This document shows positions 26,955 to 59,067 of a DNA stretch of 64,000 bases, in pieces; positions within the stretch are counted from its first letter, which is position 1; each line of letters begins with the position of its first letter. A program made the position numbers and the translations under genes. The stretch comes from Pseudoxanthomonas sp. Root65 (GTDB lineage Bacteria; Pseudomonadota; Gammaproteobacteria; Xanthomonadales; Xanthomonadaceae): positions 186,001 through 250,000 of the forward strand of contig NZ_LMHA01000003.1 in assembly GCF_001427635.1 (NCBI RefSeq), in the 5' to 3' direction. Below the pieces are notes generated by a model. The model ran no database searches and was not told the origin of the DNA. It saw nothing but the letters and a program-made list of their open reading frames with translations.

Positions 26955-26994
26955 GTCTAAATCGCCGAACCGCGCCCCGGCGCGTGCTCCCATG

Positions 26995-27022
26995 AAAAAG
27001 CCCGGCTGACGCCGGGCTTTTT
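26995..27022. terminator. Bidirectional Rho-independent terminator
   Basis: A perfect 12-bp stem (AAAAAGCCCGGC / GCCGGGCTTTTT) with a TGAC loop has A-tracts on one side and T-tracts on the other. It lies between the convergent cold-shock gene (ends 26954) and lipoprotein gene (ends 27047), so it can end both transcripts. Confidence 0.92.
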
Positions 27023-27046
27023 CTTTGCGCTGGGAAATGGATGCAA

Positions 27047-46719: not shown

Positions 46720-47419
46720 GGTCATCCGTTCCGCCGTGGTCCATGCCGAAGCGCTGGGCAAGACCTACGCCGAAGGCTCGCTGCGTACGCCGGTGTTCGA
46801 TGGCCTGGAACTCAACGTGCAGCCCGGCGAGACCGTCGCCATCGTCGGTGCCTCCGGCGCGGGCAAGAGTACGCTGCTGCACCTGCTCGGTGGCCTGGAC
46901 ACGCCGACGGCCGGCGAGGTGTATGTCGCCGGCAAGAAAATGTCGTCGCTCTCCGATGCCGCGCGCGGCCAACTGCGCAACCAGGCCCTCGGTTTCGTCT
47001 ACCAGTTCCACCACCTGCTGCCGGAGTTCACCGCGCTGGAGAACGTCATGATGCCGGTGATGCTCGGTGGTGCCGGGGTGGAAGCCGCGTCGGGCAAGGC
47101 AAGGCTGTTGCTGGAATCGGTCGGTCTCGGCCACCGTCTGGCGCACAAGCCGGGCGAGCTGTCAGGTGGCGAGCGCCAGCGTGCGGCGGTGGCACGCGCG
47201 CTGGTCAACCAGCCGGCCTGCGTGCTGGGCGACGAGCCGACCGGCAACCTGGATGAAAAGACGGCGGCGACGGTGTTCGAGCTGATGCTCGACCTCAACC
47301 GGGCGCACAAGACGAGCCTGGTGCTGGTGACCCACGACCGTCGCCTGGCGCGCCGGCTGGACCGCGTGCTGGAGCTGCACGAAGGCAAGCTGCGCGAACT
47401 GGCCCACGACGCCGTCTGA
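46712..47419 (+). CDS. lolD: LolD, lipoprotein-releasing ABC ATPase
   Basis: 235 residues. Walker [11 protein letters not shown], the Q-loop in [16 protein letters not shown] (a LolD feature), signature [15 protein letters not shown], Walker [12 protein letters not shown], and THDRRLA are all present. It overlaps the permease gene by eight bases. It is the last gene before the region that leads to the integron. Confidence 0.96.
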
Positions 47420-47875: not shown

Positions 47876-48027
47876 GGTGGCGCTCCCGGTCATGTGGCCC
47901 GCATCTTACGCTTGCGGATGGGCGGGAGAGGGGTGGCGGGTATCGTTTGGGCGGAAGGCGTTGCTGCTGACTGGCGTAGCGCAGGCACGAGCCCGATGCC
48001 ACGAAGCAGGGTGGCTTGAACGACGTG

Positions 48028-48504
48028 TCAGGCCTTGGCCACGACGGGCCGAAAATCATCCACCAACCGTTTCCTGCTGCTCCGCTCGTACTCGGCAGGC
48101 GAAAAGGGCATGGCCGAATCAGCGTAGTCGTCGATGAGTGCCAGGAGTTCTTCTTTCGAGATGTTGGCAGGAAAAGAAATGCTGCAGTTCGCCGTGATGT
48201 CTATCAGCCTTTCTTGAAGAATCTCCTTTCTTGCTATCCCAACTCCCGTTGAAGGATCAGCGACGCAGAGTCCGAAGGTGCCATTGAAGAAGTAGGGGAG
48301 ATAGCCCTGGATCTTTGCTTCTATGGCTTCCTTGGTACCGCAATGAGCTGCCAGGGAAGATCTGAGCTCTTCGACCAGTTCCGCCAGCACGGCTGCCCGC
48401 TCCGATCCTGCTGGAGCCTGATCGGCAATCCTGACCCACCGGATGCATTCAGGCCTGTAGTACTCGCCTGTCAACGAGTCCTCGATCGGTGTTTCTCCGA
48501 ACAC
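48028..48504 (-). CDS. DUF6058-like protein, probably 5'-truncated
   Basis: 158 residues from GTG 48504, but the frame is open upstream to about 48690 with family-like sequence (VSIERLDQLTVANAIPG) and no ATG. EYYRPECIRWVR, FFNGTFGLCVADP and PAEYERSSRKRLVDDF resemble remembered DUF6058 proteins, which are usually longer at the N-terminus. No ribosome-binding site is seen at the GTG. It overlaps the last cassette gene in another frame, as if the cassette junction cut off its start. GC is lower than the chromosome. Confidence 0.5.
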   Translation of the reverse strand: MFGETPIEDSLTGEYYRPECIRWVRIADQAPAGSERAAVLAELVEELRSSLAAHCGTKEAIEAKIQGYLPYFFNGTFGLCVADPSTGVGIARKEILQERLIDITANCSISFPANISKEELLALIDDYADSAMPFSPAEYERSSRKRLVDDFRPVVAKA

Positions 48505-48566
48505 GGCGGAAGAAATCGAAGCTCCGTCACAGGTGTAGGTGGCGCCTGGAATTGCGTTGGCTACGG

Positions 48567-49001
48567 TCAGTTGGTCAAGACGTTCAATCGAGACGCCGGC
48601 GACCGAGCTCCCGTCAGTGACTCTCCAGCGTTTAGGGCCTTGTTGACGGCATCCACAACGGAACTTTGTGCTGCCAGACCACTAAAGAGATGCTTTGGGC
48701 CATTGTGGTAGGTGAGCGAAGCAAACTCCAACGCGTCGCCGAAGACCAGCTCTTTGGAGAAAGGGATCTCCATCCATTCTCCGGAGCGATCTTTAGCCAC
48801 AAAGGTCTTGGGCAAAGTGATGTCTGCCATGTGGCCAATAAGAATCAAGCCGAACGCCTCAGGGAGCCAGTCAATGATGCGGCGAGCTAAGTCAGGGTCG
48901 CCAGCTAGATCGGCAACAGCGCTCTCGTACTTCTCGGTTGTGAGTCCAGAAACAGCGAGCTCACCGATCTTGGATAGAGTTTCGATGGAAACCTGTCGCA
49001 T
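48567..49001 (-). CDS. Cassette 22 (distal end): hypothetical protein
   Basis: 144 residues from ATG 49001, directly after attC 49003-49062. There is no signal peptide or membrane helix. WLPEAFGLILIGHMADITLP and EWMEIPFSKELVFGDALEFA are the most distinctive parts. I do not recognise the family. No attC follows, so it is the last cassette and has lost its own recombination site, or its attC was removed with the downstream junction. It can be mobilised only if that site exists elsewhere. Confidence 0.75.
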   Translation of the reverse strand: MRQVSIETLSKIGELAVSGLTTEKYESAVADLAGDPDLARRIIDWLPEAFGLILIGHMADITLPKTFVAKDRSGEWMEIPFSKELVFGDALEFASLTYHNGPKHLFSGLAAQSSVVDAVNKALNAGESLTGARSPASRLNVLTN

Positions 49002-49002
49002 G

Positions 49003-49062
49003 GCCTAACACCGGAATTAAGCCGACCCGCGAAGCGGGTTCGGCTTGAATTAATTGTTAGGC
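49003..49062 (-). repeat. attC site of cassette 21
   Basis: 60 bp between GCCTAAC and GTTAGGC boxes. The stem is AAGCCGACCCGC/GCGGGTTCGGCTT with one extrahelical A, and the spacer starts CACCG. It has GAATTAATTG where most sites have GAATGAATTG, a change shared only with the site at 50234. Confidence 0.95.
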
Positions 49063-49365
49063 CGCGCCACCACGATCCCGAGCACGTTTGACCAGGAAAT
49101 TCGTAGCAACTAGACCAATCACAAAAAAGAGCGCAAGGATAGCCAGCGCTGCGATCACGTAAGTAGTGTCTCCCATTGAGGCTCGGCGCTGTCGAAGTGG
49201 CCAGGACACGATAAAAATAGAAGCGAACCATAGCGCAGTACGAATGCCATAGGTTTGACGCTCTACTGATGGCGCTTGAGCACTGAAAAATCCGCGCCGC
49301 CACAGGCCATAGCCCCAAAGAGCTAATGCAACCGCAAGCATCCCCAAAACTGCATATGCACTCAT
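49057..49365 (-). CDS. Cassette 21: small membrane protein
   Basis: 102 residues with three hydrophobic helices (VLGMLAVALALWGYGLW, TALWFASIFIVSW, IAALAILALFFVIGLVATNF) and a basic end (KRARDRGGAA). The TAA stop is formed by the attC core. Unknown function. Confidence 0.78.
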   Translation of the reverse strand: MSAYAVLGMLAVALALWGYGLWRRGFFSAQAPSVERQTYGIRTALWFASIFIVSWPLRQRRASMGDTTYVIAALAILALFFVIGLVATNFLVKRARDRGGAA

Positions 49366-49370
49366 GAGCG

Positions 49371-49430
49371 GCCTAACACCTGAGTTAAGTCGCGCCGCGA
49401 AGCGGCGTCGACTTGAATGAATTGTTAGGT
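49371..49430 (-). repeat. attC site of cassette 20 (variant stem)
   Basis: 60 bp with boxes GCCTAAC and GTTAGGT. The stem differs from the majority: AAGTCGCGCCGC pairs with GCGGCGTCGACTT, with compensating changes on both arms and the same extrahelical A kept. Confidence 0.95.
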
Positions 49431-49819
49431 GGCACCTCGCGGAATAGATCGCCCAACGTGAGCTGATCGTGCCAAACCTCCGCTAATGCGATGCCATGTC
49501 TGTCGTGGAGATCCTGCTCGAGTGCTTCGAACTCAAGCGCATCTGGGAGCAATCGAGATGGATACCGCGCGCGGTATATCGCAAGCAACTCATCATCTGG
49601 ACTGAATTTGAGAGCGTGTCGTGATTTTATGGCGAAAGATGACGCGAATAGGTCCAAGAATTGGCGAATGGATTGCTTTGAGGAGTCTGGGAAGCGGCGT
49701 CGCCACTCACGACCTTGGCAATGGCGCTTACGATACACGCGCGGCATACCTGTATCGAATAACCCTGCTGCAACGAGCGCGACTGCGCCTAGAGCGAGTA
49801 GTAAGGTGTCAGTTTGCAT
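49385..49819 (-). CDS. Cassette 20: membrane-anchored protein with attC-encoded tail
   Basis: 144 residues from ATG 49819. An N-terminal helix (LLLALGAVALVAAGLF) anchors a soluble domain (residues 30-125) rich in charged residues and ending LTLGDLFREV. The frame then enters the attC and adds PPNNSFKSTPLRGAT before the TAA in the attC. No family recognised. Confidence 0.75.
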   Translation of the reverse strand: MQTDTLLLALGAVALVAAGLFDTGMPRVYRKRHCQGREWRRRFPDSSKQSIRQFLDLFASSFAIKSRHALKFSPDDELLAIYRARYPSRLLPDALEFEALEQDLHDRHGIALAEVWHDQLTLGDLFREVPPNNSFKSTPLRGAT

Positions 49820-49834
49820 GAACCCTCCAGTGCC

Positions 49835-49894
49835 GCCTAACACCTGAATTAAGCCGCGCCACGAAGTGGCGTCGGCTTGAATGAATTGTTAGAG
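49835..49894 (-). repeat. attC site of cassette 19 (variant stem and core)
   Basis: 60 bp. The stem is AAGCCGCGCCAC/GTGGCGTCGGCTT, the third stem type, also seen at 53913. The right-hand box is GTTAGAG instead of GTTAGGC, matching its left neighbour CTCTAAC at 50234, as expected if the core's last bases travel with the cassette junction. Confidence 0.92.
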
Positions 49895-50221
49895 CTCATA
49901 CTCGTATCCGCACAGACCATAGCCCTTATAAAAAAAGTGAAACAAATCTTGGGCCTGAGCTCTTGTGGCTAGCGTGACGTCCTCTAGGCTAAGAAGGACT
50001 TGGGCAGATAGCTCGCTCAAGTTGTATGTGACGTTGTTAACCCTTTGAATGCCCGAAAATTCGGGTACCACCAGTGGCATTACGCCATTGTCAGGAAAGA
50101 GGAATGAAATGTTCTCTCCAACACGAGGGACAAATGGTAGCTCCATCGTTCCCGCGACGTTGCCGTACGCCGTGCCGTCAGCTAAGAAGACAGAGAAATC
50201 GATGTGACAGGGAATGGGCAT
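49889..50221 (-). CDS. Cassette 19: hypothetical soluble protein
   Basis: 110 residues from ATG 50221 (MPIPCHIDFSVFLADG). It is predicted mostly beta in the first half and helical in the second (LATRAQAQDLFHFFYKGYG). There is no signal peptide. The stop is in the attC core. Family unknown. Confidence 0.75.
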   Translation of the reverse strand: MPIPCHIDFSVFLADGTAYGNVAGTMELPFVPRVGENISFLFPDNGVMPLVVPEFSGIQRVNNVTYNLSELSAQVLLSLEDVTLATRAQAQDLFHFFYKGYGLCGYEYEL

Positions 50222-50233
50222 GTTGGAAATGAG

Positions 50234-50293
50234 CTCTAACACCGGAATTAAGCCGACCCGCGAAGCGGGTTCGGCTTGAATTAATTGTTAGGT
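50234..50293 (-). repeat. attC site of cassette 18
   Basis: 60 bp, left box CTCTAAC and right box GTTAGGT. It has the majority stem, spacer CACCG, and GAATTAATTG as in the 49003 site. Confidence 0.93.
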
Positions 50294-50653
50294 GCCACCC
50301 ACATGACCGTTACGGCACCGTGCTTTTTTGGTGCCTGCCCGCGTAACTGCTAGGACGAGCGAACAAACTCCCACCACGCTAGAAAAGTACAGCCATCCCC
50401 CGGCAGCGTCCATGTAGCCCACGTCAAAGGCCCACCACATCAATGGAGCATGAGCGATCAGGAAAGTAAGGATGAATGCCAGGGCGCCCTTTGGGAAAAA
50501 GTAGGCAAGCCCCGCCAGGAGGATGGAGATCGCGGCTGCTGGAGCGCCAATGAAGAGTACAAAGAGAGGCGTTGGGTCCGATGCCAGAGCAATGCCCGGC
50601 ACGGCAGCGAGGCCGAAAGTGGCAAACAATCTTTGAAATGCAAGGGCGCTCAT
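50288..50653 (-). CDS. Cassette 18: membrane protein
   Basis: 121 residues from ATG 50653 with four hydrophobic helices (including LFVLFIGAPAAAISILLAGLA-type and GALAFILTFLIAHAPLMWW). The C-terminal tail is basic (GTKKARCRNGH). The stop is within the attC core. Unknown function. Confidence 0.76.
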   Translation of the reverse strand: MSALAFQRLFATFGLAAVPGIALASDPTPLFVLFIGAPAAAISILLAGLAYFFPKGALAFILTFLIAHAPLMWWAFDVGYMDAAGGWLYFSSVVGVCSLVLAVTRAGTKKARCRNGHVGGT

Positions 50654-50658
50654 GTGGC

Positions 50659-50718
50659 ACCTAACACCTGAATTAAGCCGACCCGCGAAGCGGGTTCGGC
50701 TTGAATGAATTGTTAGGT
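50659..50718 (-). repeat. attC site of cassette 17
   Basis: 60 bp, boxes ACCTAAC and GTTAGGT, majority stem, spacer CACCT, right spacer GAATGAATTG. Confidence 0.95.
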
Positions 50719-51119
50719 GGCGTACCGCGATATGCCAGCACTACGAAAGAAATGCCTGTCGCTGCGGAGATTAGTATCGGCACCCACATGAGTCCCTGAT
50801 ATAGCCCGCCGACAAGAAGTAGGAAAACACTGGGAAGCATTGCAATGAAAAGGGCGACAGCCGGCCCAGCAACGCGTATCCGCAGGCAGTACCACATGAG
50901 GGGAAGGGCATAAACCAGGAGTACCAATGCCGCGAACATGTATGCAATCAACGACGTAAACAACGAGTCCACGACAAGATTCGCCGCCTGCGACCAAGAC
51001 GATGAATGAAATGCCGCGAGAAGGATGGAGTACAGGAGGCTCCCCGCGAACACGCCAATCAGCGTGGAAATGAACAGGTTGCGGTACGGACGATTGGGTT
51101 GCCGGGTTACAAGACTCAC
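50673..51119 (-). CDS. Cassette 17: four-helix membrane protein with attC-encoded tail
   Basis: About 148 residues from GTG 51119; the frame continues into the upstream attC without ATG. There are four hydrophobic helices (FISTLIGVFAGSLLYSILLA, IAYMFAALVLLVYALPLMW, ALFIAMLPSVFLLLVGGLY, PILISAATGISFVVLAY). The last residues, PPNNSFKPNPLRGSA, are encoded by the attC. Unknown function. Confidence 0.72.
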   Translation of the reverse strand: MSLVTRQPNRPYRNLFISTLIGVFAGSLLYSILLAAFHSSSWSQAANLVVDSLFTSLIAYMFAALVLLVYALPLMWYCLRIRVAGPAVALFIAMLPSVFLLLVGGLYQGLMWVPILISAATGISFVVLAYRGTPPNNSFKPNPLRGSA

Positions 51120-51125
51120 ATAGCC

Positions 51126-51185
51126 CCCTAACACCTGAATTAAGCCGACCCGCGAAGCGGGTTCGGCTTGAATGAATTGTTAGGT
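51126..51185 (-). repeat. attC site of cassette 16
   Basis: 60 bp, boxes CCCTAAC and GTTAGGT, majority stem, spacer CACCT. Confidence 0.95.
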
Positions 51186-51550
51186 GCCGCCCGCCCTAGC
51201 AACCCGGCAACCGCACCACCTTTTGCAGCGGCCATTTCTCGTGGGGTCTCGCCAAACTCCGACCGGATGTCAGGGTTTGCACCCGCCTCCAGAAGCGCCT
51301 CGACGAGCCCGAGATTCTCCTGGCGAACGGCGATATGCAGAGGGGTCTCACCCATGTCGCTGATGACATTTGGTGCGGCACCTGCCGCGACCAGAAACTT
51401 CGCCCCCGCAGAGTCCCCTCGCCTGACCAAGACATGCAAGGCCGTATCTCCGTCGCAGTCTTGGCTGTCGAGGGAGACCTTGCGCTCCCCCAGCTCTGCA
51501 GGGAACAAGGCGTCTGAAGTGGACTGGAGGATTTCCTGCAGGGTTCGCAT
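51140..51550 (-). CDS. Cassette 16: ankyrin-repeat protein with attC-encoded tail
   Basis: 136 residues from ATG 51550. Three ankyrin units are visible: DGDTALHVLVRRGDSAGAKFL, MGETPLHIAVRQENLGLVEAL-like, and FGETPREMAAAKGG. They are typical protein-binding repeats. The frame reads into the attC and ends APNNSFKPNPLRGSA. It is probably a cytoplasmic interaction protein; the partner is unknown. Confidence 0.85.
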   Translation of the reverse strand: MRTLQEILQSTSDALFPAELGERKVSLDSQDCDGDTALHVLVRRGDSAGAKFLVAAGAAPNVISDMGETPLHIAVRQENLGLVEALLEAGANPDIRSEFGETPREMAAAKGGAVAGLLGRAAPNNSFKPNPLRGSA

Positions 51551-51563
51551 ATCCGCTTGCGGC

Positions 51564-51623
51564 ACCTAACACCTGAATTAAGCCGACCCGCGAAGCGGGT
51601 TCGGCTTGAATGAATTGTTAGGC
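51564..51623 (-). repeat. attC site of cassette 15
   Basis: 60 bp, boxes ACCTAAC and GTTAGGC, majority stem, spacer CACCT. Confidence 0.95.
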
Positions 51624-51632
51624 CGCGGCCGA

Positions 51633-51914
51633 CTATGCAGCATGTGCGGCCAGTACTATCAGCAGCACAGAAATGGCAACGACTGCCGCCAGCAGCAGCC
51701 ACTCTCGCAGGTTGAAGTCAGTGATCGGAAAGCTGGCTGGGTTGATGAGTGACCTAAAGATTGGCTTACCAACGCGGCGGTAATGAAGTGCAAACACGCC
51801 ATTACCCGCAAGAATTGTGAAGGCAAAGAAAAGCACGACCAACGCTGTTTGTGATGCGGGCATGAAACGCAGACTATCTAGAATCATTTGCCAGGGTTGT
51901 GAATTTGTATCCAT
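51633..51914 (-). CDS. Cassette 15: small membrane protein
   Basis: 93 residues from ATG 51914. Two hydrophobic helices (TALVVLFFAFTILAGNGVFAL and WLLLAAVVAISVLLIVLA) are joined by a basic loop (HYRRVGKPIFRS). The stop TAG precedes the attC by ten bases. Unknown function. Confidence 0.76.
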   Translation of the reverse strand: MDTNSQPWQMILDSLRFMPASQTALVVLFFAFTILAGNGVFALHYRRVGKPIFRSLINPASFPITDFNLREWLLLAAVVAISVLLIVLAAHAA

Positions 51915-51917
51915 GCG

Positions 51918-51977
51918 GTCTAACACCGGAATTAAGCCGACTCGCGAAGCGGGTTCGGCTTGAATGAATTGTTAGGC
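51918..51977 (-). repeat. attC site of cassette 14 (one stem mismatch)
   Basis: 60 bp, boxes GTCTAAC and GTTAGGC. The left arm reads CCGACTCGCG instead of CCGACCCGCG, an uncompensated C-to-T that leaves a G-T type wobble. Confidence 0.93.
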
Positions 51978-52301
51978 CGCGTCGCCATCTGCCGCGTCCT
52001 TGTGTGGATAGTAGACCAGAGCGGCCCCCGAACTCAGAGCTTCTTCATAGAAGCCAGCGAATCCCCGATAGAGGTCCGTGTTTAGGACGTCAATCTGGAG
52101 CTTGCCGCCGCGCATGTTTTCAATATTTGTAAAGCCGTATCGGCCACACTCGTCTAGCGCTGCCTCGAAGTCGTAGGCCTCAGATTGCTGCCTGAGGAAG
52201 AGCATGCATTTGTGAGTGGCACCAACGTCGGGGTGGCTCCAGGTGTACTTGGAATCACCGGAAAAGCGACCTTGGAACCCGTAGAGCATTACAACTGTCA
52301 T
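51972..52301 (-). CDS. Cassette 14: hypothetical soluble protein
   Basis: 109 residues from ATG 52301 (MTVVMLYGFQGRFSGDSKYTW begins it). ALDECGRYGFTNIENMRGGK and YRGFAGFYEEALSSGAAL are distinctive, and I recall similar cassette proteins in Xanthomonads without a known role. No helix or signal. Stop in the attC core. Confidence 0.78.
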   Translation of the reverse strand: MTVVMLYGFQGRFSGDSKYTWSHPDVGATHKCMLFLRQQSEAYDFEAALDECGRYGFTNIENMRGGKLQIDVLNTDLYRGFAGFYEEALSSGAALVYYPHKDAADGDAA

Positions 52302-52306
52302 CAGCG

Positions 52307-52366
52307 GCCTAACACCGGAATTAAGCCGACCCGCGAAGCGGGTTCGGCTTGAATGAATTGTTAGGG
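52307..52366 (-). repeat. attC site of cassette 13
   Basis: 60 bp, boxes GCCTAAC and GTTAGGG, majority stem, spacer CACCG. The terminal G instead of C or T matches the CCCTAAC box of the next site at 52746. Confidence 0.94.
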
Positions 52367-52740
52367 CCCGCCCATGCAAGCTTACGGACCGTGGCAGCGA
52401 TTGGAACTGAGAACCCGATGACGAATAGCGCCAGCGGCGGAAGGATGGCCGCGGCAATTGCGGCTGGCAAGGCTGCAGCTCCAAGTACGTTGAGCCATGT
52501 TGCCTTTCCGCGACGAGCCAGCGCAACAGATACGGGCACGCCGTAGAGCAAGACGACCGGCGCTCCTATAACTAGACTCCAAGTAAGCACTAGGTTGCCA
52601 GAAGCGGTCAGCCCAAACGCACTTACCGGCTGGAACCGCGAGTCAAAGAGGGAGACGCCATAGGCGAGAGCCAGTGCGCAGATCACCAAGGATGCGGTGG
52701 CGATAAGCGCAACTTGCATCAGATGGCGGATGAGTGTCAT
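52321..52740 (-). CDS. Cassette 13: membrane protein with attC-encoded tail
   Basis: 139 residues from ATG 52740. Helices are VALIATASLVICALALAYG, NLVLTWSLVIGAPVVLLYG, and a long Ala/Leu/Pro-rich segment (LGAAALPAAIAAAILPPLAL). The C-terminus GPNNSFKPNPLRGSA is encoded by the attC. Unknown function. Confidence 0.75.
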   Translation of the reverse strand: MTLIRHLMQVALIATASLVICALALAYGVSLFDSRFQPVSAFGLTASGNLVLTWSLVIGAPVVLLYGVPVSVALARRGKATWLNVLGAAALPAAIAAAILPPLALFVIGFSVPIAATVRKLAWAGPNNSFKPNPLRGSA

Positions 52741-52745
52741 GCGGG

Positions 52746-52805
52746 CCCTAACACCTGAGTTAAGCCGACCCGCGAAGCGGGTTCGGCTTGAATGAACTGT
52801 TAGCT
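52746..52805 (-). repeat. attC site of cassette 12
   Basis: 60 bp, boxes CCCTAAC and GTTAGCT, majority stem. The spacer is CACCTGAGTT and the right spacer GAATGAACTG. The AGCT end matches the AGCTAAC box at 53163. Confidence 0.93.
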
Positions 52806-52817
52806 GGCAGCCGTTGC

Positions 52818-53129
52818 TCACTGGCCATCTTGAGTCGAAGGCTCGCATTTGAACCAAATGCGACGCTCCATGGTGCAGAAGGCGGGGTGCTGGTCCTCCT
52901 CTCGGACAATGGAGTATGCGCCACCGCATTGAGCATGCATTTTTTTATAGGCGTCATCTCGGCGCGCATCTCGAACACTTTTTGCTCCTGCATTGCAGTA
53001 GCTAATCTCTCCAGTTACCCCGCGCTCATTGACTGGCGCATATGCGCTATTGGATGGCCCTCGAACATTGACGTTGCTCGCGCTACAGGAGGTAAGCAAG
53101 AGAGTAAGCAATGTGATTAGGTATTTCAT
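52818..53129 (-). CDS. Cassette 12: small lipoprotein
   Basis: 103 residues from ATG 53129. The signal MKYLITLLTLLLTSC has a lipobox-like LTSC. The mature domain has four more Cys (SYCNAG, AQCGG, FCTME, FKCEP), suggesting two disulfides in the periplasm. Overlapping frames are shadows. Unknown function. Confidence 0.76.
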   Translation of the reverse strand: MKYLITLLTLLLTSCSASNVNVRGPSNSAYAPVNERGVTGEISYCNAGAKSVRDARRDDAYKKMHAQCGGAYSIVREEDQHPAFCTMERRIWFKCEPSTQDGQ

Positions 53130-53162
53130 GAGTCCCCCAGACCCGTCGCTATTGCTGTTGCC

Positions 53163-53222
53163 AGCTAACACCTGAATTAAGCCGACCCGCGAAGCGGGTT
53201 CGGCTTGAATGAATTGTTAGGT
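53163..53222 (-). repeat. attC site of cassette 11
   Basis: 60 bp, boxes AGCTAAC and GTTAGGT, majority stem, spacer CACCT. Confidence 0.95.
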
Positions 53223-53223
53223 C

Positions 53224-53904
53224 TCACCACGGACGCCACCACCGACGCTCGCCTTTGAAGGTGGGCTCATCACGAACGTACGAGGTCCAGACGTCAGCGC
53301 CAAGCACGCTGGAAAGCTGCGCAATAATTGTCCTCGTGCGATGTCTGAGCTCCTGGACCTGGTGGACCAGTGCATCCCTAGGAACGGAAATTGCCAAGTG
53401 AGTTTCGTCAGAGTCTGGATCGCCCTCCAAGAAGTGAAGGTAGCCATCCTGAGCGTAGGTTTGAAGCTCCCAGCCTTGCTCCATGTCGTGATAAATGAGG
53501 CCAGAATCAGTCTCGACGATCGTCGCCAAGTACCTCTCTATTTCCGAGAAGCTGTCGTACCAAGGAAATGAAATGTGAACCTCGTGCTCTGAGTTCCAGA
53601 GCCAGAGTCTTAGCCAAAAGTACTGCCGTATAGATTTAAACGGACGCTTGTGGCGGCGCGCCATCCGAACAATTTGCTCATAGTATGCTGCCAATTCTAG
53701 CTCCTGCCCTACAGCCTCAGAGGTTCTAACCAGCGACGGGACCGCCAATTGAATCTTCGGAGGGGTGAGCTTATCCGCTAGCCTTTCACGGTCAGAGATG
53801 TCGGAGAATCTATCAGGACCATAGTAGAACGTTTCTTGGAGTTGGAAGCAGACCTCGGCCTGTAACGAGGGAACTGTTCTTGTTTCTGAGAGCCAGGATT
53901 GCAT
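53224..53904 (-). CDS. Cassette 11: largest cassette gene, hypothetical protein
   Basis: 226 residues from ATG 53904. It is soluble and rich in aromatic residues. Distinctive parts are YYEQIVRMARRHKRPFKSIRQ, HEVHISFPWYDSFSEIE and WELQTYAQDGYLHFLEGD, with a helical C-terminus ending GERRWWRPW. GC is low for the genome. I do not recognise the family. As the largest cassette gene it is the best candidate here for an enzyme or defence function, but no motif supports either. Confidence 0.78.
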   Translation of the reverse strand: MQSWLSETRTVPSLQAEVCFQLQETFYYGPDRFSDISDRERLADKLTPPKIQLAVPSLVRTSEAVGQELELAAYYEQIVRMARRHKRPFKSIRQYFWLRLWLWNSEHEVHISFPWYDSFSEIERYLATIVETDSGLIYHDMEQGWELQTYAQDGYLHFLEGDPDSDETHLAISVPRDALVHQVQELRHRTRTIIAQLSSVLGADVWTSYVRDEPTFKGERRWWRPW

Positions 53905-53912
53905 GCTGTGAG

Positions 53913-53972
53913 ACCTAACGCCTGAATTAAGCCGCGCCACGAAGTGGCGTCGGCTTGAATGAATTGTTAGGC
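53913..53972 (-). repeat. attC site of cassette 10 (variant stem)
   Basis: 60 bp, boxes ACCTAAC and GTTAGGC. The stem is AAGCCGCGCCAC/GTGGCGTCGGCTT, the type shared with 49835, and the spacer is CGCCT rather than CACCT. Confidence 0.95.
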
Positions 53973-53975
53973 GCG

Positions 53976-54212
53976 CTACCCATGTCGTGCACGCCAGCCG
54001 ATCCTGACAAGGAAAGCTCCGATTGCTGCCCATGCGGCGATGTAAACCCAGTAGAGAAATGGACTGTCTGCTGCTGAAACGGAAAACGATCTTCGCTTGC
54101 TAGGGAACTCAACGGCTCCGTTTACTACGCCGTCAATGGCGAAGTAGAAGCCGACAAATCCCAAGGCAATGATAGCGACTGCGGCCAGCCACCAGACAAA
54201 ATTGCTTGACAG
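53976..54212 (-). CDS. Cassette 10: small membrane protein, start uncertain
   Basis: About 78 residues. The frame has no ATG. A CTG at 54212 gives a protein starting SSNFVWWLAAVAIIALGFVGF, with a full first helix; a TTG at 54164 would cut that helix. A second helix (YWVYIAAWAAIGAFLVRIGW) follows. The whole frame is open from the attC core. Stop TAG at 53976. Start is chosen by helix completeness. Confidence 0.55.
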   Translation of the reverse strand: MSSNFVWWLAAVAIIALGFVGFYFAIDGVVNGAVEFPSKRRSFSVSAADSPFLYWVYIAAWAAIGAFLVRIGWRARHG

Positions 54213-54234
54213 TTGCCTTGTTCTTGCCGTGCGC

Positions 54235-54294
54235 GCCTAACACCAGAATTAAGCCGACCCGCGAAGCGGGTTCGGCTTGAATGAATTGTTAGGC
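54235..54294 (-). repeat. attC site of cassette 9
   Basis: 60 bp, boxes GCCTAAC and GTTAGGC, majority stem, spacer CACCA. It is the first of four neighbouring sites (54235-55394) with A at this spacer position. Confidence 0.95.
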
Positions 54295-54573
54295 CGATGG
54301 TAGCTCAATAGTGCTCCAGCGTACCTCTAGCCCGGTATCAGGACTGTCCTGCCGCCGACGGAACTCTGCCGCTGCCAAGATCTTGGGAGACGCGTCTGCA
54401 TCTCCAAGCCGACTAAGCTCAAAAATATCCGCAGACTCGAAGTCGTCCCAATACTCCGTGACGTCAAGCATCCGAGAGCGAAATGCGTGCGGGACGCCGC
54501 GATAAAGGGCGATACCAGCCCGAGGGCCGTCGTACCAGTCGTCTAGTTGCAAGACTTCTTCGAACTCTCGCAT
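54289..54573 (-). CDS. Cassette 9: small acidic hypothetical protein
   Basis: 94 residues from ATG 54573. EVLQLDDWYDGPRAGIALYRG followed by VPHAFRSRM and EYWDDFESADIFEL make it markedly acidic and Trp-rich. I recall similar small proteins elsewhere without a role. Stop in attC core. Confidence 0.78.
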   Translation of the reverse strand: MREFEEVLQLDDWYDGPRAGIALYRGVPHAFRSRMLDVTEYWDDFESADIFELSRLGDADASPKILAAAEFRRRQDSPDTGLEVRWSTIELPSA

Positions 54574-54578
54574 CGTAG

Positions 54579-54638
54579 GCCTAACACCAGAATTAAGCCG
54601 ACCCGCGAAGCGGGTTCGGCTTGAATGAATTGTTAGGC
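54579..54638 (-). repeat. attC site of cassette 8
   Basis: 60 bp, boxes GCCTAAC and GTTAGGC, majority stem, spacer CACCA. Confidence 0.95.
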
Positions 54639-54654
54639 GGCATCCCAGTCCGCC

Positions 54655-54864
54655 TCACCAGAAGATCACCACTAGAACGAACGTCACCAACAGGAAGCAC
54701 CCGGCGAAAAGCAGCGACAGAAATGTTCTGCCCCCGGCGCAGTCTTTGCAGTAGCGACCGGACGCGCCGGCACTCCCGAGCAGGAAGAACGCAAAAATGG
54801 AGTACCAATGAGGTGCGGTAGTAACAGCAGGGCGTTCGTTGCATTGGCTACAGAGCTCGCTCAT
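54655..54864 (-). CDS. Cassette 8: zinc-ribbon plus membrane-helix protein
   Basis: 69 residues from ATG 54864. ELCSQCNERPAV and RYCKDCAGG are two CxxC knuckles around a hydrophobic stretch (WYSIFAFFLLGSAG), with a C-terminal helix (FLSLLFAGCFLLVTFVLVVIFW). This is a compact membrane-bound zinc-ribbon. An 83-residue frame on the same strand that ends in the attC overlaps it but has no domain features. Confidence 0.75.
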   Translation of the reverse strand: MSELCSQCNERPAVTTAPHWYSIFAFFLLGSAGASGRYCKDCAGGRTFLSLLFAGCFLLVTFVLVVIFW

Positions 54865-54909
54865 ATCGCCTCATCGAAGTATCTCAAGCCATACAGAACT
54901 CCACATGCC

Positions 54910-54969
54910 GCCTAACACCAGAATTAAGCCGACCCGCGAAGCGGGTTCGGCTTGAATGAATTGTTAGCG
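54910..54969 (-). repeat. attC site of cassette 7
   Basis: 60 bp, boxes GCCTAAC and GTTAGCG, majority stem, spacer CACCA. The AGCG end matches the CGCTAAC box at 55335. Confidence 0.94.
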
Positions 54970-55329
54970 CCCAGCCGCGGCCTTACGAGCGCGAAGATGA
55001 GCGAGGTTACCTGCTTTGAGTGACTTGTACTGCGGCAGGAACCCTTCTGCCGCGTCCCACTGAGATGCTATCGCATCTAGATCCGCCAGCGTCTTGGACG
55101 CCAGAAAACTTTCTAGCGGCTCTAAGCCAAGATCCATGCCCTCGCTGGAGCAATCCGGACACATAGGCCAGTCTGCCGACATGGTGCCGGCAGGGAACTG
55201 AGTGAAGCACACAGGGCAGACTGTCTCTACTGCCAGTGCATTCTCGATCACCCCCTGTGCGGCCGGGACGTAAGTCCGACGAAACTCCTGAAACGGCATT
55301 CTGGGTTGCTTCTTGCGGAATGGCCACAT
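54964..55329 (-). CDS. Cassette 7: zinc-ribbon protein
   Basis: 121 residues from ATG 55329. After a basic start (MWPFRKKQPRM) comes a CPVC...CPDC zinc ribbon (about residues 38-59) and a helical C-terminal half (LADLDAIASQWDAAEGFL). Soluble. Stop in the attC core. Unknown function. Confidence 0.76.
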   Translation of the reverse strand: MWPFRKKQPRMPFQEFRRTYVPAAQGVIENALAVETVCPVCFTQFPAGTMSADWPMCPDCSSEGMDLGLEPLESFLASKTLADLDAIASQWDAAEGFLPQYKSLKAGNLAHLRARKAAAGR

Positions 55330-55334
55330 ATAGG

Positions 55335-55394
55335 CGCTAACGCCAGAATTAAGCCGACCCGCGAAGCGGGTTCGGCTTGAATGAATTGTTAGGC
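55335..55394 (-). repeat. attC site of cassette 6
   Basis: 60 bp, boxes CGCTAAC and GTTAGGC, majority stem, spacer CGCCA. Confidence 0.94.
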
Positions 55395-55955
55395 ATCACT
55401 TGCGCGGCTGTCCTTGCCGCGAGGAATGCCCGCGAAACCACGAACGATCCAGCCTATGCAGCAGACCAAAACCCAGAATACGACAAGCCCAATTGCCAAG
55501 TAACCAAGTGATTGCAGCCAGTTCTTGCGGTAGCGCTTAGAAATCTCCTGGTCAGCCCACTGAGCATCAGAGCTTGAGAGTGCAAAGCGCTTTTCAATCT
55601 CGCGCTCATAAACATCTACTTCACTGCTGTAAGAAGCGGCGCCCCAGACCATTCCGGCCTGATCAATTTTGTAAGGGACGAGTTGCTCGGAATCCTTGCC
55701 AAATGGCATGGTCAAGAGGCAAAGATCAATGCCGACAGAATGATCATTTGGTGTATTTGTAGAGAAGTAGTGCCGCCCGGCGCTTGTAGGGCACGGCTCA
55801 TCCGTTCTGACCGGCGGTAAGTCAGGGCGAGACACGTGGTAGTCAACAGATAAGTACGGATCGCTCGTGCCCGTAACGAGCAGAACAACAATTGTTGTGA
55901 GCGCGGCAAGAATCAGTGCAATCCGACGAGCGCCCTCAAAAACATTGATCCGCAT
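55389..55955 (-). CDS. Cassette 6: two-helix envelope protein
   Basis: 188 residues from ATG 55955. An N-terminal helix (IALILAALTTIVVLLVTG) and a C-terminal one (LGYLAIGLVVFWVLVCCIGWIV) flank a 115-residue domain with EPCPTSAGRHYFSTNTPN and VDVYEREIEKRF, probably periplasmic. The C-terminus is basic. Unknown function; the second longest cassette gene. Confidence 0.78.
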   Translation of the reverse strand: MRINVFEGARRIALILAALTTIVVLLVTGTSDPYLSVDYHVSRPDLPPVRTDEPCPTSAGRHYFSTNTPNDHSVGIDLCLLTMPFGKDSEQLVPYKIDQAGMVWGAASYSSEVDVYEREIEKRFALSSSDAQWADQEISKRYRKNWLQSLGYLAIGLVVFWVLVCCIGWIVRGFAGIPRGKDSRASDA

Positions 55956-55979
55956 GATTGCCTCGTTGGTCGGTGTGAT

Positions 55980-56039
55980 GCCTAACACCTGAATTAAGCC
56001 GACCCGCGAAGCGGGTTCGGCTTGAATGAATTGTTAGGC
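55980..56039 (-). repeat. attC site of cassette 5
   Basis: 60 bp, boxes GCCTAAC and GTTAGGC, majority stem, spacer CACCT. Confidence 0.95.
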
Positions 56040-56347
56040 GCCGCCACTCGTAGTGGGTGCGCCGGATTGTCCCGGATGAACGCCTCAACGTCCGCTAGCC
56101 TATCAGGCAGTGACGGGCCGGAAGTGCTGCGATAGCTAAAGAACCGGAAGCCGGCTGCGAAGAGAGCCTGGACCTTTGACCATTGCTCAAGATCTTTGGC
56201 GGGAGGCGCTTTGAACGAGCGACCCATCTCATAGACTGTCCCGCCGCAGCTTGGGCAGACGGCAACTGAGTCTGGGCGGGGCACAACCTTGAAGCTCTTG
56301 CGACAGTCGAAGCAGGCATGGGCAATCAAGTATTGTGGACTTGGCAT
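55994..56347 (-). CDS. Cassette 5: zinc-ribbon protein with attC-encoded tail
   Basis: 117 residues from ATG 56347 (ATG 56362 also possible). HACFDCRKSFKV and AVCPSCGGTVYEM form a rubredoxin-like zinc ribbon, followed by helical WSKVQALFAAGFRFF. The frame enters the attC and ends APNNSFKPNPLRGSA. Unknown function. Confidence 0.78.
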   Translation of the reverse strand: MPSPQYLIAHACFDCRKSFKVVPRPDSVAVCPSCGGTVYEMGRSFKAPPAKDLEQWSKVQALFAAGFRFFSYRSTSGPSLPDRLADVEAFIRDNPAHPLRVAAPNNSFKPNPLRGSA

Positions 56348-56366
56348 GCGATTGACCTGCATAGGC

Positions 56367-56426
56367 GCCTAACACCGGAATTAAGCCGACCCGCGAAGCG
56401 GGTTCGGCTTGAATGAACTGTTAGGC
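56367..56426 (-). repeat. attC site of cassette 4
   Basis: 60 bp, boxes GCCTAAC and GTTAGGC, majority stem, spacer CACCG, right spacer GAATGAACTG. Confidence 0.95.
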
Positions 56427-56780
56427 CTACAAGCCCGGGATCGTGCGGACATACGCTCCGTCCATCGAGTACACCTGAATCTCATGGTTCCCGGGCGCGA
56501 AGCCACATTTAGGAGGATCGCCGTGTACCCGAGCGAAGACGACCATAACAGTAATGTCTTTATTGACAGTGTTGCGAGCGGTAAATTCGCACTGTGTGTC
56601 GGCGCGATGGCACCGTGCTTGCAGCCGTTGCCTTGCCGCAGCCACGGCTTTCCGCTCGCTGGGCGAGCGAGTCCCTTCCGGCTCGCCAGTTGGAAAGCAA
56701 GCCGGCGCTACCGCTGGCGGTGCTTTACCGCATCCCGCCAACATGATCAGTGCGAATGCCGTTGTGATGACTCTTTCCAT
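56427..56780 (-). CDS. Cassette 4: lipoprotein
   Basis: 117 residues from ATG 56780. The signal MERVITTAFALIMLAGC has lipobox LAGC. The mature part has four Cys (PACFP, QARCHRA, TQCEF, PKCGF). The C-terminal NHEIQVYSMDGAYVRTIPG is beta-rich. The stop TAG directly abuts the attC. Unknown function. Confidence 0.77.
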   Translation of the reverse strand: MERVITTAFALIMLAGCGKAPPAVAPACFPTGEPEGTRSPSERKAVAAARQRLQARCHRADTQCEFTARNTVNKDITVMVVFARVHGDPPKCGFAPGNHEIQVYSMDGAYVRTIPGL

Positions 56781-56783
56781 GTG

Positions 56784-56843
56784 GCCTAACACCGGAATTA
56801 AGCCGACCCGCGAAGCGGGTTCGGCTTGAATGAATTGTTAGGT
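56784..56843 (-). repeat. attC site of cassette 3
   Basis: 60 bp, boxes GCCTAAC and GTTAGGT, majority stem, spacer CACCG. Confidence 0.95.
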
Positions 56844-57128
56844 TGCAACGCCGCCAAGCCTGCGCGCAACCGCTAGAACAATGATGGAGACAAGATTAAG
56901 GCAGCGGAATACGCCGGCTATTTGCGGGATGCCAAATGCAATGGCCGCGATGGCAGCGGCACCTACAAGAATGAGAGCGGCCTTGCCAATGAAGGACGAA
57001 CGCCACAGAAAGGCATTGCGCCTCAGGGCAAGTGTCGCGCGGATTGGAAGTAGCGAAATGCCGAACAACCCAATAAATCCCAGGGCGTAGATGGACGAGG
57101 CAAACAGCAGATAGGGCCAATCTGTCAT
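56838..57128 (-). CDS. Cassette 3: small membrane protein
   Basis: 96 residues from ATG 57128. Helices YLLFASSIYALGFIGLFGIS and GKAALILVGAAAIAAIAFGI are joined by a basic loop (RATLALRRNAFLWR), with a third weaker segment near the end. Stop in attC core. Unknown function. Confidence 0.76.
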   Translation of the reverse strand: MTDWPYLLFASSIYALGFIGLFGISLLPIRATLALRRNAFLWRSSFIGKAALILVGAAAIAAIAFGIPQIAGVFRCLNLVSIIVLAVARRLGGVAT

Positions 57129-57132
57129 CGCA

Positions 57133-57192
57133 ACCTAACACCTGAATTAAGCCGACCCGCGAAGCGGGTTCGGCTTGAATGAATTGTTAGGC
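57133..57192 (-). repeat. attC site of cassette 2
   Basis: 60 bp, boxes ACCTAAC and GTTAGGC, majority stem, spacer CACCT. Confidence 0.95.
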
Positions 57193-57216
57193 GCCAACAC
57201 CGTCATGATGAATCGC

Positions 57217-57528
57217 CTAGTCCTCGAAGTACGGCTCGCCGGACCGGAAGTAGAAATCATACTTGTCTCGCAATGCAGCGAGTACTCCGTCAATGTTGGC
57301 CGCCAGCTGCAGTGCTTGAACAGAATCAGCGCCATAAGTGGTGTCTGAGACTTTTTCCGGCAGCCCCTCAAGCTCCCAGCGGCATCCGGCCACGACGCCA
57401 TCAACCTCGAAGTTGACGCTACCGACGGGGACAATGAAGGGCGAAAAGATGCGGATCACCAAATCTTTGCGCTGACCACCGCCTCGAACGGCGTACTGGA
57501 GCGATCGCTCTGCAATTCTTTCCGTCAT
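57217..57528 (-). CDS. Cassette 2: DUF6968-like protein
   Basis: 103 residues from ATG 57528. IAERSLQYAVRGGGQRKDLVI, AGCRWELEGLP and GADSVQALQLAANIDGVL match the pattern of the small DUF6968 family as remembered. Cytoplasmic, function unknown. Unlike most cassettes its stop lies 25 bases before the attC. Confidence 0.7.
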   Translation of the reverse strand: MTERIAERSLQYAVRGGGQRKDLVIRIFSPFIVPVGSVNFEVDGVVAGCRWELEGLPEKVSDTTYGADSVQALQLAANIDGVLAALRDKYDFYFRSGEPYFED

Positions 57529-57546
57529 TAAGCAGTCTCTATTGGC

Positions 57547-57606
57547 GCCTAACACCGGAATTAAGCCGACCCGCGAAGCGGGTTCGGCTTGAATGAATTG
57601 TTAGGC
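57547..57606 (-). repeat. attC site of cassette 1
   Basis: 60 bp, boxes GCCTAAC and GTTAGGC, majority stem, spacer CACCG. It is nearest to attI. Confidence 0.95.
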
Positions 57607-57885
57607 CGCAACCGACAAAACGCGACCTGTCCCTTTGTTGCCATTCTCCCAGACTGTGAAATCAGAACCCACAGAAAAGTACCTAAGTGCATCTGGAACT
57701 AGTAGCTGCGCCGTGGCATGAAAGGTATCGCCGGGTCCAGGACTGTCCGCAAAAGTAAGGCGGGCTGACCAGTGCTCGTTGCCGATGCCTAGAATGGTGC
57801 GCCACTCACCAGATGCCAACGGAGTTGATCGACTGCCGGTCTCAATCGGTAGAAGATGGATCTCGGCAACAAAGTGAGCTTTCAT
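57601..57885 (-). CDS. Cassette 1: EF-Tu beta-barrel-like small protein
   Basis: 94 residues from ATG 57885, four bases from the attI core. VAEIHLLPIETGSRSTPLASG, SARLTF and RYFSVGSDFTVWENGNKGTG resemble the isolated EF-Tu domain-like barrels found as small stand-alone proteins. It is in first position and so most exposed to the cassette promoter. The stop is the TAA of the attC core. Confidence 0.75.
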   Translation of the reverse strand: MKAHFVAEIHLLPIETGSRSTPLASGEWRTILGIGNEHWSARLTFADSPGPGDTFHATAQLLVPDALRYFSVGSDFTVWENGNKGTGRVLSVAA

Positions 57886-57889
57886 TGCG

Positions 57890-57932
57890 GCCTAACTACT
57901 TTGTAGACCCCACTAAGGGGGTGATAACGCCG
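57890..57932 (-). other. attI recombination site
   Basis: The core GTTAGGC (57896-57890 on the minus strand) joins unique sequence (CTACAAAGTA) on its intI side to cassette 1 on the other. Here the attC-like left arm is absent, which marks the fixed end of the array. A small CCCC-ACTAA-GGGG dyad lies at 57908-57921. The outer limit of attI is not determined. Confidence 0.8.
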
Positions 57933-57961
57933 AGTATTCAGCCAGTACCGGCATGCGTCAA
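57933..57961 (-). promoter_or_regulatory. Candidate cassette promoter Pc
   Basis: On the minus strand TTGACG (57961-57956) and AATACT (57938-57933) are 17 bases apart, a good sigma-70 spacing with 5/6 and 4/6 matches. The predicted start is about 40 bases before the ATG of cassette 1, so it points into the array. Confidence 0.55.
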
Positions 57962-58052
57962 TCGGGATTTTCTTATGTGAGAACAATGCCTTGCCTGATG
58001 GCTCGCAGTCATCCCCCATGCGACGTTGTCGGCATTATTCGCATGGAACGCG

Positions 58053-59066
58053 ATGGCCATGGATTATCAGCCGGAGGACGGGGCGGTATCGGGTGGGGAT
58101 GCGGGGGTAGGGGAAGAACGCTTGCTGGAGGCCGTGGTCCGCAAGTTGCGGGTCGGTCACTACAGCTTGCGGACGGAGCGGGCGTATCTGGGGTGGATTC
58201 GGCGGTTCATCCTGGTCAACGGGAGACGTCATCCGCGTGAGTTGGGCGCGCCGCGGGTCGAGGCGTTCCTGACCGGACTGGCGGTGGAAGGCAAGGTTGC
58301 GGCCAGTACGCAGAACCAGGCGTTGTCGGCGCTGCTGTTCCTCTATCGCGAAGTGCTGGGACTGAAGTTGCCGTGGATGGACGACGTGGTGCGTGCCAAG
58401 CGGCCGCTGCGCGTGCCGACCGTGCTGTCGCAAACCGAAGTGCGGACCCTGCTGGCCCACATGGACGGCCGCATGGCCCTGCTGGCGCGGCTGCTCTACG
58501 GCACCGGCATGCGCTTGATGGAAGGCGTGCGCCTGCGGGTGAAGGACGTGGACTTTGCCCGCAACGAGATCACCGTGCGCGAAGGCAAGGGCGGCAAGGA
58601 CCGGCGGACGGTGTTGCCTGCATCGCTGGTGCCGGCGCTGCAGGCGGAAGTGGAACGCGTGCACGTGCTGCACCGCCAGGACCTGGCGCGCGGCGCCGGC
58701 GAGGTGTGGTTGCCGCATGCACTGTCGCGCAAGTATCCCTCGGCGGCGCGCGAGCTGGGATGGCAGTACGTGTTTCCCGCGCGGACCATCAGCCTGGACC
58801 CGCGCGATGGACGATGGCGGCGCCATCACCTGGACGAAGCGATGCTGTCGCGGGCGCTGAAGCGCGCCCAGGGCGAGGCGGGCATCGTCAAGCCGGTGAC
58901 CGCGCATACGCTGCGGCATTCGTTCGCCACCCACCTGATCGAGAGCGGCTACGACATCCGTACCGTGCAGGAACTGCTGGGGCACAAGGATGTCGCCACC
59001 ACGCAGATCTATACGCACGTCCTGAACCGCGGCGCCGGCGCCGTGCTCAGTCCGCTGGATCGCTGA
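58053..59066 (+). CDS. intI: Integron integrase IntI
   Basis: 337 residues from ATG 58053 (an in-frame ATG at 58059 and a TTG at 58026 are alternatives). The tyrosine recombinase tetrad is R144 (GTGMRLMEG), H275-x-x-R278 (HTLRH), H301 and Y310 ([16 protein letters not shown]). The extra patch [21 protein letters not shown] is the integron-specific domain between motifs that separates IntI from XerC/D. The gene is intact with no frameshift and chromosomal GC. It recombines attC with attI. No LexA box is seen upstream. Confidence 0.96.
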
Positions 59067-59067
59067 C

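Follow-up and report, generated by a model that had tools for sequence, protein, structure and literature searches.

The integron between lolD and comEC

The DNA analysed here, referred to as the window, is a stretch of 64,000 nucleotides (nt) from Pseudoxanthomonas sp. Root65 (contig NZ_LMHA01000003.1, positions 186,001 to 250,000). Between the host genes lolD and comEC it contains a chromosomal integron, which consists of an integrase gene (intI), an attI recombination site, a predicted cassette promoter (Pc) and a divergent array of attC sites with their gene cassettes. The two host genes flank the integron here and in sister genomes, giving it a fixed chromosomal locus with no transposon or plasmid context, although no search aimed at transposons was made. 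A preliminary description of the window had recognised a sedentary chromosomal integron, of the kind that occurs in xanthomonads, most of whose cassettes hold unstudied genes, and the parts, the fixed lolD-comEC locus and the unassigned open reading frames (ORFs) all agree with it. Coordinates without a contig are those of the window; G000 is its genome, and other genomes carry handles of the same form. The parts outside the array are:

46712..47419, plus strand, lolD, host gene at the distal flank
47985..48035, minus strand, degenerate terminal attC remnant (22nd, distal site), no attC fold
57890..58000, minus strand, attI region with R box, CCCC..GGGG hairpin and upstream CATCAGGCAAGGCATTG motif, outer boundary approximate
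57890-57896, minus strand, R box, part of the attI region
57984-58000, minus strand, CATCAGGCAAGGCATTG motif, upstream part of the attI region
57933..57961, minus strand, predicted Pc, TTGACG-17-AATACT, from promoter prediction and conserved hexamers
58059..59066, plus strand, intI, integron integrase of 335 amino acids (aa), from TIGR02249, alignment to 2a3v and a conserved ATG
59068..61455, plus strand, comEC, possible start 1 nt past the end of intI, with exbB-like, exbD-like and msbA-like ORFs after it

The intI product is an IntI-type tyrosine recombinase that scores 473 bits against the TIGR02249 profile (cut-off 265). Its residues 25-335 align with the solved integron integrase IntI4 (structure 2a3v), and on this alignment it carries what we take to be the catalytic residues and the integron-specific insert. 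The start, placed earlier at 58026, is likely the ATG at 58059, which is kept in all 11 of the aligned species. The gene is under purifying selection, with ratios of nonsynonymous to synonymous substitutions (dN/dS) of 0.08-0.32 in 13 comparisons with relatives and of 0.08-0.18 for the nine closest. The integrase is intact, as had been described. When records that bear a name are ranked by IntI, the closest seven all belong to Pseudoxanthomonas, and a search of the whole genome returned one full intI plus three further matches, short and weak, and no second integron integrase.

The attI region adjoins intI. Its Pc hexamers are largely conserved across the aligned attI sites while the spacer between them varies, and the promoter is predicted to read into the window array. 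The site had been described as intact, which is not borne out as stated: in two alignments, its spacer ahead of the R box exceeds that of every other attI by 1 nt (10/10 and 23/23). The hairpin loop is also longer than in 23 others; G007 and G028, which are outside that set, have the same longer loop. R box variants (GTTAT) occur in two other linked attI, those of G009 and G016.

The attC array

The 21 attC sites belong to one repeat family, lie in one orientation between 49003 and 57606, and are read divergently from intI. Each is exactly 60 bp long, the mean column identity is 95%, and a covariance model built from the 21 sites recovers all of them, so that repeat family and model agree with the array as it had been described. 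The sites have R and L boxes, and three of them, folded as single-stranded DNA on both strands, gave the canonical palindromic hairpin with extrahelical bases (z -5.2 to -6.2). The distal 22nd site does not fold as an attC (z +0.5 and -0.6). Each site below was placed by the repeat family, the 60-bp alignment and the covariance model.

57547..57606, minus strand, attC 1
57133..57192, minus strand, attC 2
56784..56843, minus strand, attC 3
56367..56426, minus strand, attC 4
55980..56039, minus strand, attC 5
55335..55394, minus strand, attC 6
54910..54969, minus strand, attC 7
54579..54638, minus strand, attC 8
54235..54294, minus strand, attC 9
53913..53972, minus strand, attC 10
53163..53222, minus strand, attC 11
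52746..52805, minus strand, attC 12
52307..52366, minus strand, attC 13
51918..51977, minus strand, attC 14
51564..51623, minus strand, attC 15
51126..51185, minus strand, attC 16
50659..50718, minus strand, attC 17
50234..50293, minus strand, attC 18
49835..49894, minus strand, attC 19
49371..49430, minus strand, attC 20
49003..49062, minus strand, attC 21

The first 11 nt of a cassette tend to pair with its own last 11 nt in a set of 564 cassettes: at position 11 the own ends paired at a frequency of 0.57 against 0.26 for other pairs, and at position 12 the own-end value was 0.23. Outside the arrays of the family, one of two arrays with at least 8 cassettes showed own-end pairing, and the other did not beyond the core. 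We dropped private terminal inverted repeats as a novelty, since pairing of 9-11 nt between the R' and R'' ends of cassettes is already stated in the part of PMC2727003 available to us. The pairing seen here is the same as in that paper, and is now measured on many cassettes, with own-versus-other controls and a sharp end at 11 nt.

A further observation concerns the tip of the bottom-strand attC, which reads GAAGC in 359 of 385 attC of the 60-bp length class, with covarying stems, and thereby forms a GCGAAGC mini-hairpin. Mini-hairpins of this sequence are stable. A mini-hairpin role is already discussed in PMC11641012, as far as the consulted part of that paper goes.

The cassettes and their genes

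The array comprises 21 cassettes from 57895 to 49009, with ORFs on the minus strand, and a terminal unit. About 22 mostly unknown cassettes had been counted; the 21 stand and are mostly without an assigned family, but the 22nd, distal unit ends in the degenerate site.

57553..57895, minus strand, cassette 1, ORF 57601-57885, stand-alone EF-Tu domain 3-like barrel, 97.9% identical copy in second array
57139..57552, minus strand, cassette 2, ORF 57217-57528, DUF6968 (Pfam)
56790..57138, minus strand, cassette 3, ORF 56838-57128, no family assigned, rearranged 97% copy in second array
56373..56789, minus strand, cassette 4, ORF 56427-56780, no family assigned
55986..56372, minus strand, cassette 5, ORF 55994-56362, weak zinc ribbon (below cut-off), 83% homologue in G018
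55341..55985, minus strand, cassette 6, ORF 55389-55955, no family assigned
54916..55340, minus strand, cassette 7, ORF 54964-55329, no family assigned, 94% homologue in G023
54585..54915, minus strand, cassette 8, ORF 54655-54864, no family assigned
54241..54584, minus strand, cassette 9, ORF 54289-54573, no family assigned, 97% homologue in G027
53919..54240, minus strand, cassette 10, ORF 53976-54164, no family assigned
53169..53918, minus strand, cassette 11, ORF 53224-53904, no family assigned, 226 aa
52752..53168, minus strand, cassette 12, ORF 52818-53129, no family assigned
52313..52751, minus strand, cassette 13, ORF 52321-52740, no family assigned
51924..52312, minus strand, cassette 14, ORF 51972-52301, no family assigned, 98% homologue in G023
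51570..51923, minus strand, cassette 15, ORF 51633-51914, no family assigned, 93% homologue in G013
51132..51569, minus strand, cassette 16, ORF 51140-51565, ankyrin repeats, 90% homologue in orphan array of G017
50665..51131, minus strand, cassette 17, ORF 50673-51134 (start uncertain), no family assigned
50240..50664, minus strand, cassette 18, ORF 50288-50653, no family assigned
49841..50239, minus strand, cassette 19, ORF 49889-50221, no family assigned
49377..49840, minus strand, cassette 20, ORF 49385-49819, no family assigned
49009..49376, minus strand, cassette 21, ORF 49057-49365, no family assigned
48029..49008, minus strand, terminal unit, ORFs 48567-49001 (no family assigned) and 48028-48504 (DUF6058)

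Our later scripts counted the 20 cassettes that lie between two attC. By a longest-ORF rule, 7 of their ORFs stop at a TAA in R'' and 5 later inside attC, whereas 6 stop before attC and 2 read through it. Several of the ORFs (51140, 52321, 55994 and others) end in the same attC-encoded tail, PNNSFKPNPLRGSA.

Of the 23 ORFs, a count that includes the two of the terminal unit, Pfam matched four at an E-value of 0.01, and three matches exceeded the curated cut-off (DUF6968, ankyrin repeats and DUF6058). The cassette 1 product has a predicted structure (mean predicted local distance difference test score 89.9) that matches chains of EF-Tu at a template modelling score of about 0.75. By sequence it matches EF-Tu residues 303-391 weakly (E 0.042), which we take to be the third domain. 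We found 75 relatives of this product; the closest are 95-97% identical and many lie on short contigs.

Over the 23 ORFs, PADLOC returned 2 families with one match each, one of them named Ankyrin; ten ORFs scanned singly gave no PADLOC match, and the second match was not assigned to an ORF. The cassette ORFs matched 3 unnamed families in PHROGs and 5 families in NCBIfam, one match each, including three ankyrin-type effector models and one anti-phage model (MzaA); we took the NCBIfam matches to belong to the ankyrin ORF. We do not claim a defence role for the cassettes.

A second array with its own attI

We searched the rest of the genome for attC with the covariance model, scoring 150 of 2839 first-look candidates, and found a second cluster of 13 matches on another contig (G000:C1:1530493-1535158). 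Its sites reach 92.8 bits, the distal ones scoring lower (49.8 bits), and one of the 13 is a partial site beside N in the assembly. The cluster starts with TTGACG, GAATACT, the CCCC..GGGG hairpin and CTACTAGGTGTTAG, which is the attI-Pc unit of the intI of sister species. This unit fits the attI pattern of the genus with 0 mismatches and is the only such attI in the genome. No intI match was found near the cluster. With at least 2 attC and no integrase nearby, it qualifies as a cluster of attC sites lacking an integron-integrase (CALIN). As for the array being a degraded remnant, its attI and Pc sequences are kept, its distal attC score lower, and an origin by loss of intI is possible. A third attC cluster (C1:1330242-1332773) is decayed, and a further attI-like site at C1:1218987 (2 mismatches) has at most one weak attC match beside it (25.6 bits).

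Two of the window cassettes, 1 and 3, have copies in the second array that are 97-98% identical to them. The window could be a self-contained, ordinary sedentary chromosomal integron to which the rest of the genome is irrelevant, and all canonical parts are indeed present, with 21 near-identical attC. The two copies in the second array and the location there of the genome's sole zero-mismatch attI speak against this, and we consider it very improbable. To see a self-standing integron in the window, as had been done, is correct as far as the element is real, but misses that the genome has at least one platform besides this one.

Orphan attI platforms in the genus and family

Allowing up to 3 mismatches, the attI pattern matched 12 of 38 genomes of the genus, 10 of them with 2-5 copies, while the reversed control pattern matched none of the 38. 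The 27 places so identified comprised 11 beside a full intI and 16 that were not, one of which (G011:C2) keeps an intI fragment. Downstream attC were present at 13 of these 16 orphans, the first at a distance of 268-1365 nt and up to 20 in number, with arrays reaching 17, 19 and 20 sites; the remaining three showed none within the downstream sequence covered (1535, 591 and 87 nt). The same hybrid histidine-kinase gene lies upstream of an orphan attI in 9 genomes, and also in G028, and thus in at least 10 of the 38; among the nine, the gene of the eight other genomes is 94-96% identical to that of the window genome. It ends 110-327 nt before the attI (984 nt in G018).

A looser pattern matched 33 of 179 genomes of the family, nine of them with at least 2 copies (control 0). 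We examined 14 further orphans, 13 from eight genomes plus the third site of the window genome, with an attC pattern tuned to the genus. Six had at least 2 attC downstream (G312:2446, which also has an intI fragment, G306 twice, G348, G382 and G028). In G432, CACC/GGTG replaces CCCC/GGGG in both attI copies, which suggests that the hairpin matters and that the copies change together. Across 12 aligned orphans, the hairpin, the CTA-TAGG-GTTAG core and the -35 box are kept in nearly all. In the literature searched, which covered few subscription papers, we did not find several attI platforms in one genome.

Cassette sharing within and between genomes

Counting the terminal unit, 5 of 22 window cassettes have DNA homologues in other arrays, from four genomes, and inclusion of the orphan arrays raises this to 7/22 by adding cassettes 1 and 16. 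Four of the cassettes are 93-98% identical to those of other species, whereas intI is 72-84% and comEC 74-81% identical between the same genomes, which points to recent exchange of cassettes between species; the fifth is 83-84% identical, hardly closer than intI. Cassette order could be checked between species, where no adjacent pair of cassettes was shared. The earlier suggestion that the array is still functional gains indirect support from the purifying selection on intI, the little sharing and the apparent recent exchange. In the array of Pseudoxanthomonas spadix (L057), a run of cassettes of about 236 nt that are nearly identical to one another looks like an amplification.

We also compared cassettes from linked arrays (12 genomes) with cassettes from orphan arrays (9 genomes), a set in which 8 of the 13 orphan attC of G000 were caught. 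Cassettes at least 96% identical made up 8 of 1450 linked-orphan pairs from the same genome and 2 of 19665 from different genomes (Fisher 1.9e-8); the pairs are not independent, two of the 8 involving one orphan cassette, so that p-values are indicative. By genome, 4 of the 7 for which cassettes of both array types were covered share cassettes within themselves (G000, G018, G019 and G027), against 2 of 101 cross pairs. The shared cassettes are up to 100% identical, and 7 of the 8 shared blocks begin and end at R boxes, so that such a block is one cassette with its attC. The script units differ in length in four of the eight pairs, owing either to a missed attC or to DNA gained next to the shared block. 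Within a genome, the linked and the orphan attI were more alike than permuted ones (0.886 versus 0.762; 0/5000), also without G011, which has five near-identical copies (0.844 versus 0.786; 2/5000). At the histidine-kinase locus, only 3 of 82 cassettes from 7 genomes have a homologue at the same locus in another genome, all of one cassette family (G000, G013 and G019), and the arrays at this locus have therefore turned over.

A probable distributed chromosomal integron

We interpret the window as the integrase-bearing platform of a distributed chromosomal integron, in which one integrase probably acts in trans on several platforms, and give this a probability of about three in four. The interpretation builds on the anatomy of the locus, the recurrent orphan locus, the sharing of cassettes within genomes with edges at recombination points, and the likeness of attI within genomes. 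Promoterless cassettes would be excised and inserted by IntI through recombination between attI and attC hairpins in single-stranded form, and reading into the array would be driven by Pc, located in the attI region. Acting in trans, IntI would also serve at least one further chromosomal platform that has no intI of its own and comprises just an attI-Pc unit with its cassette array, so that cassettes could move from platform to platform within a genome and, less often, from species to species. IntI is in this scheme the presumed agent of exchange, the orphan promoters presumably work, and the orphan platforms would have arisen by copying of a platform followed by loss of intI.

Several observations weigh against this interpretation. 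Some orphans are poor in attC: G009 has none in 1.5 kb and G017:C7 has one, and with the attC pattern applied 8 of the 14 further orphans had none downstream (three in G379, two in G299, and G312:2028, G432:C2 and G000:C1:1218987), four of these with less than 1 kb of sequence covered. One orphan, G018:C6, has a changed -10 box, and the linked attI of the window genome is itself deviant. No sharing within the genome was seen in G013, G017 and G032, the arrays of which were partly covered. The one remaining shared block of the eight, that of cassette 3, ends part-way through the cassette, in a second-array stretch that contains N and an internal repeat. The similarity of attI within genomes weakens when four genomes (close relatives or duplicates) are left out (86/5000) and for the core alone (167/5000). 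Finally, mobilisation of CALINs in trans is already in print, according to the part of PMC12444791 consulted.

Some of these points would also be expected if the orphan arrays were ordinary CALINs, that is, remains of integrons whose intI is gone and which no integrase serves any longer, with attI kept by chance and the shared cassettes being old duplicates. The attC-less orphans and the changed -10 box fit this view, as do the degenerate third cluster, the intI fragment beside the attI of G011:C2 and the proposal, in the available part of PMC9024848, that CALINs are degraded integrons. It accounts poorly for the conservation of hairpin, core and -35 box in nearly all aligned orphans, for the long orphan arrays, for the turnover at the histidine-kinase locus and for shared cassettes of up to complete identity with nearly all block edges at recombination points. 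We therefore regard ordinary CALINs as an unlikely explanation, although a less remote one than a self-contained integron.

Linkage of intI to comEC

Six genomes of the genus with no integron at this locus (G029, G010, G024, G004, G006 and G014) have lolD and comEC 128-226 nt apart, as measured between alignment ends; in other genomes of the genus the distance is 0.7-3.5 kb, or the two genes lie at separate locations. Of the 38 genomes, 26 have intI, and by position it directly precedes comEC in 17 of these 26. In the window, a possible comEC start lies 1 nt from the intI stop (59064-59070), and at every one of the 19 linked loci examined a start codon in frame for comEC falls -10 to +9 nt from the intI stop. 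Of two additional observations, one concerns G012 (L148), where an attC array lies beside comEC and intI is reduced to its last 47 codons, which still abut comEC; the other is that no intI remnant was found beside comEC in 14 other genomes of the genus, in the upstream sequence covered. A single clade of comEC-linked integrases was rejected by an approximately unbiased test (p 3.4e-83, quick tree); an ancestral locus with swapped intI is a possible alternative.

The abutment may be functional, in that transcription from the intI promoter (PintI) would co-express the integrase with the channel that imports single-stranded DNA, the same form in which attC sites recombine. Besides the consistent spacing, it would be in keeping with this that the linked intI do not form one clade, well supported branches forcing at least 4 changes, that all 15 genomes of the genus with a ComEC at least 71% identical to that of the window keep intI or its 3' end at comEC, and that the window genome has matches to DprA and ComEA. 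On the other side, the comEC start in the linked loci is putative, the linkage is uncommon outside the clade (at least 7 of 120 intI-bearing genomes of the family), and the trees of IntI and ComEC show correlation (r 0.67) as well as conflict. Replacement of intI at an inherited locus would moreover give the same pattern. Upstream of intI, the LexA-like patterns that we assumed for xanthomonads and E. coli fit with no fewer than 3 mismatches, and GAAC-N7-GTTC fits with 2. On balance we hold co-expression to be conceivable and rather doubtful. An intI beside comEC was not found in the literature searched, in which few subscription papers were covered.

The exbB-like, exbD-like and msbA-like ORFs 3' of comEC were named by eye from their translations. 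Elsewhere in the window, at 26619-27025, lies a cspA thermoregulator (Rfam RF01766, 80.2 bits).

Relation to known integrons

The papers compared here were consulted in part, and the comparisons refer to those parts. The window integron resembles the ilvD-intI integrons of Xanthomonas (PMC12444791) in having intI, attI, Pc and a divergent array of mostly unstudied cassettes, and in the swapping of intI by recombination at a stable locus. It differs in that the locus is lolD-comEC rather than ilvD, with intI abutting comEC, and in the second attI platform without intI at a recurrent locus. With CALINs the second array shares an attC array without nearby intI, a recurrent chromosomal position, those of Xanthomonas likewise occupying conserved loci (PMC12444791), and the ability, said of CALINs, to be mobilised in trans. 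Unlike them, the orphan arrays here begin with attI and Pc, contain up to 20 attC and have recent cassettes in common with the resident integron; the consulted parts of the CALIN literature searched make no mention of an attI at CALINs. According to the authors of IntegronFinder (PMC9024848), a typical integron has a single attI near its integrase, the attI of integrons other than class 1 have been poorly described and are not detected by that program, and integrase-less arrays are proposed to reflect decay. One survey reports Xanthomonadales-like attC in Pseudoxanthomonas and predicts the Xanthomonadales to be a source of many resistance cassettes (PMC8352920), while another places the attC of Pseudoxanthomonas in a marine clade (PMC11089894).

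Beyond the window, we tentatively propose, at somewhat less than even odds, that the integrons of Pseudoxanthomonas and its relatives are networks, in which one integrase, kept within the comEC operon, would drive several dispersed attI-promoter platforms; these would co-evolve with it in sequence and trade cassettes, so that expressed first positions would be multiplied with no need of additional integrases and capture would be tied to DNA uptake. The attI sequence defined here can be searched for directly. If the orphan attI platforms are live, it would be necessary to recount how many cassettes each genome expresses and to revise the account of how CALINs arise.

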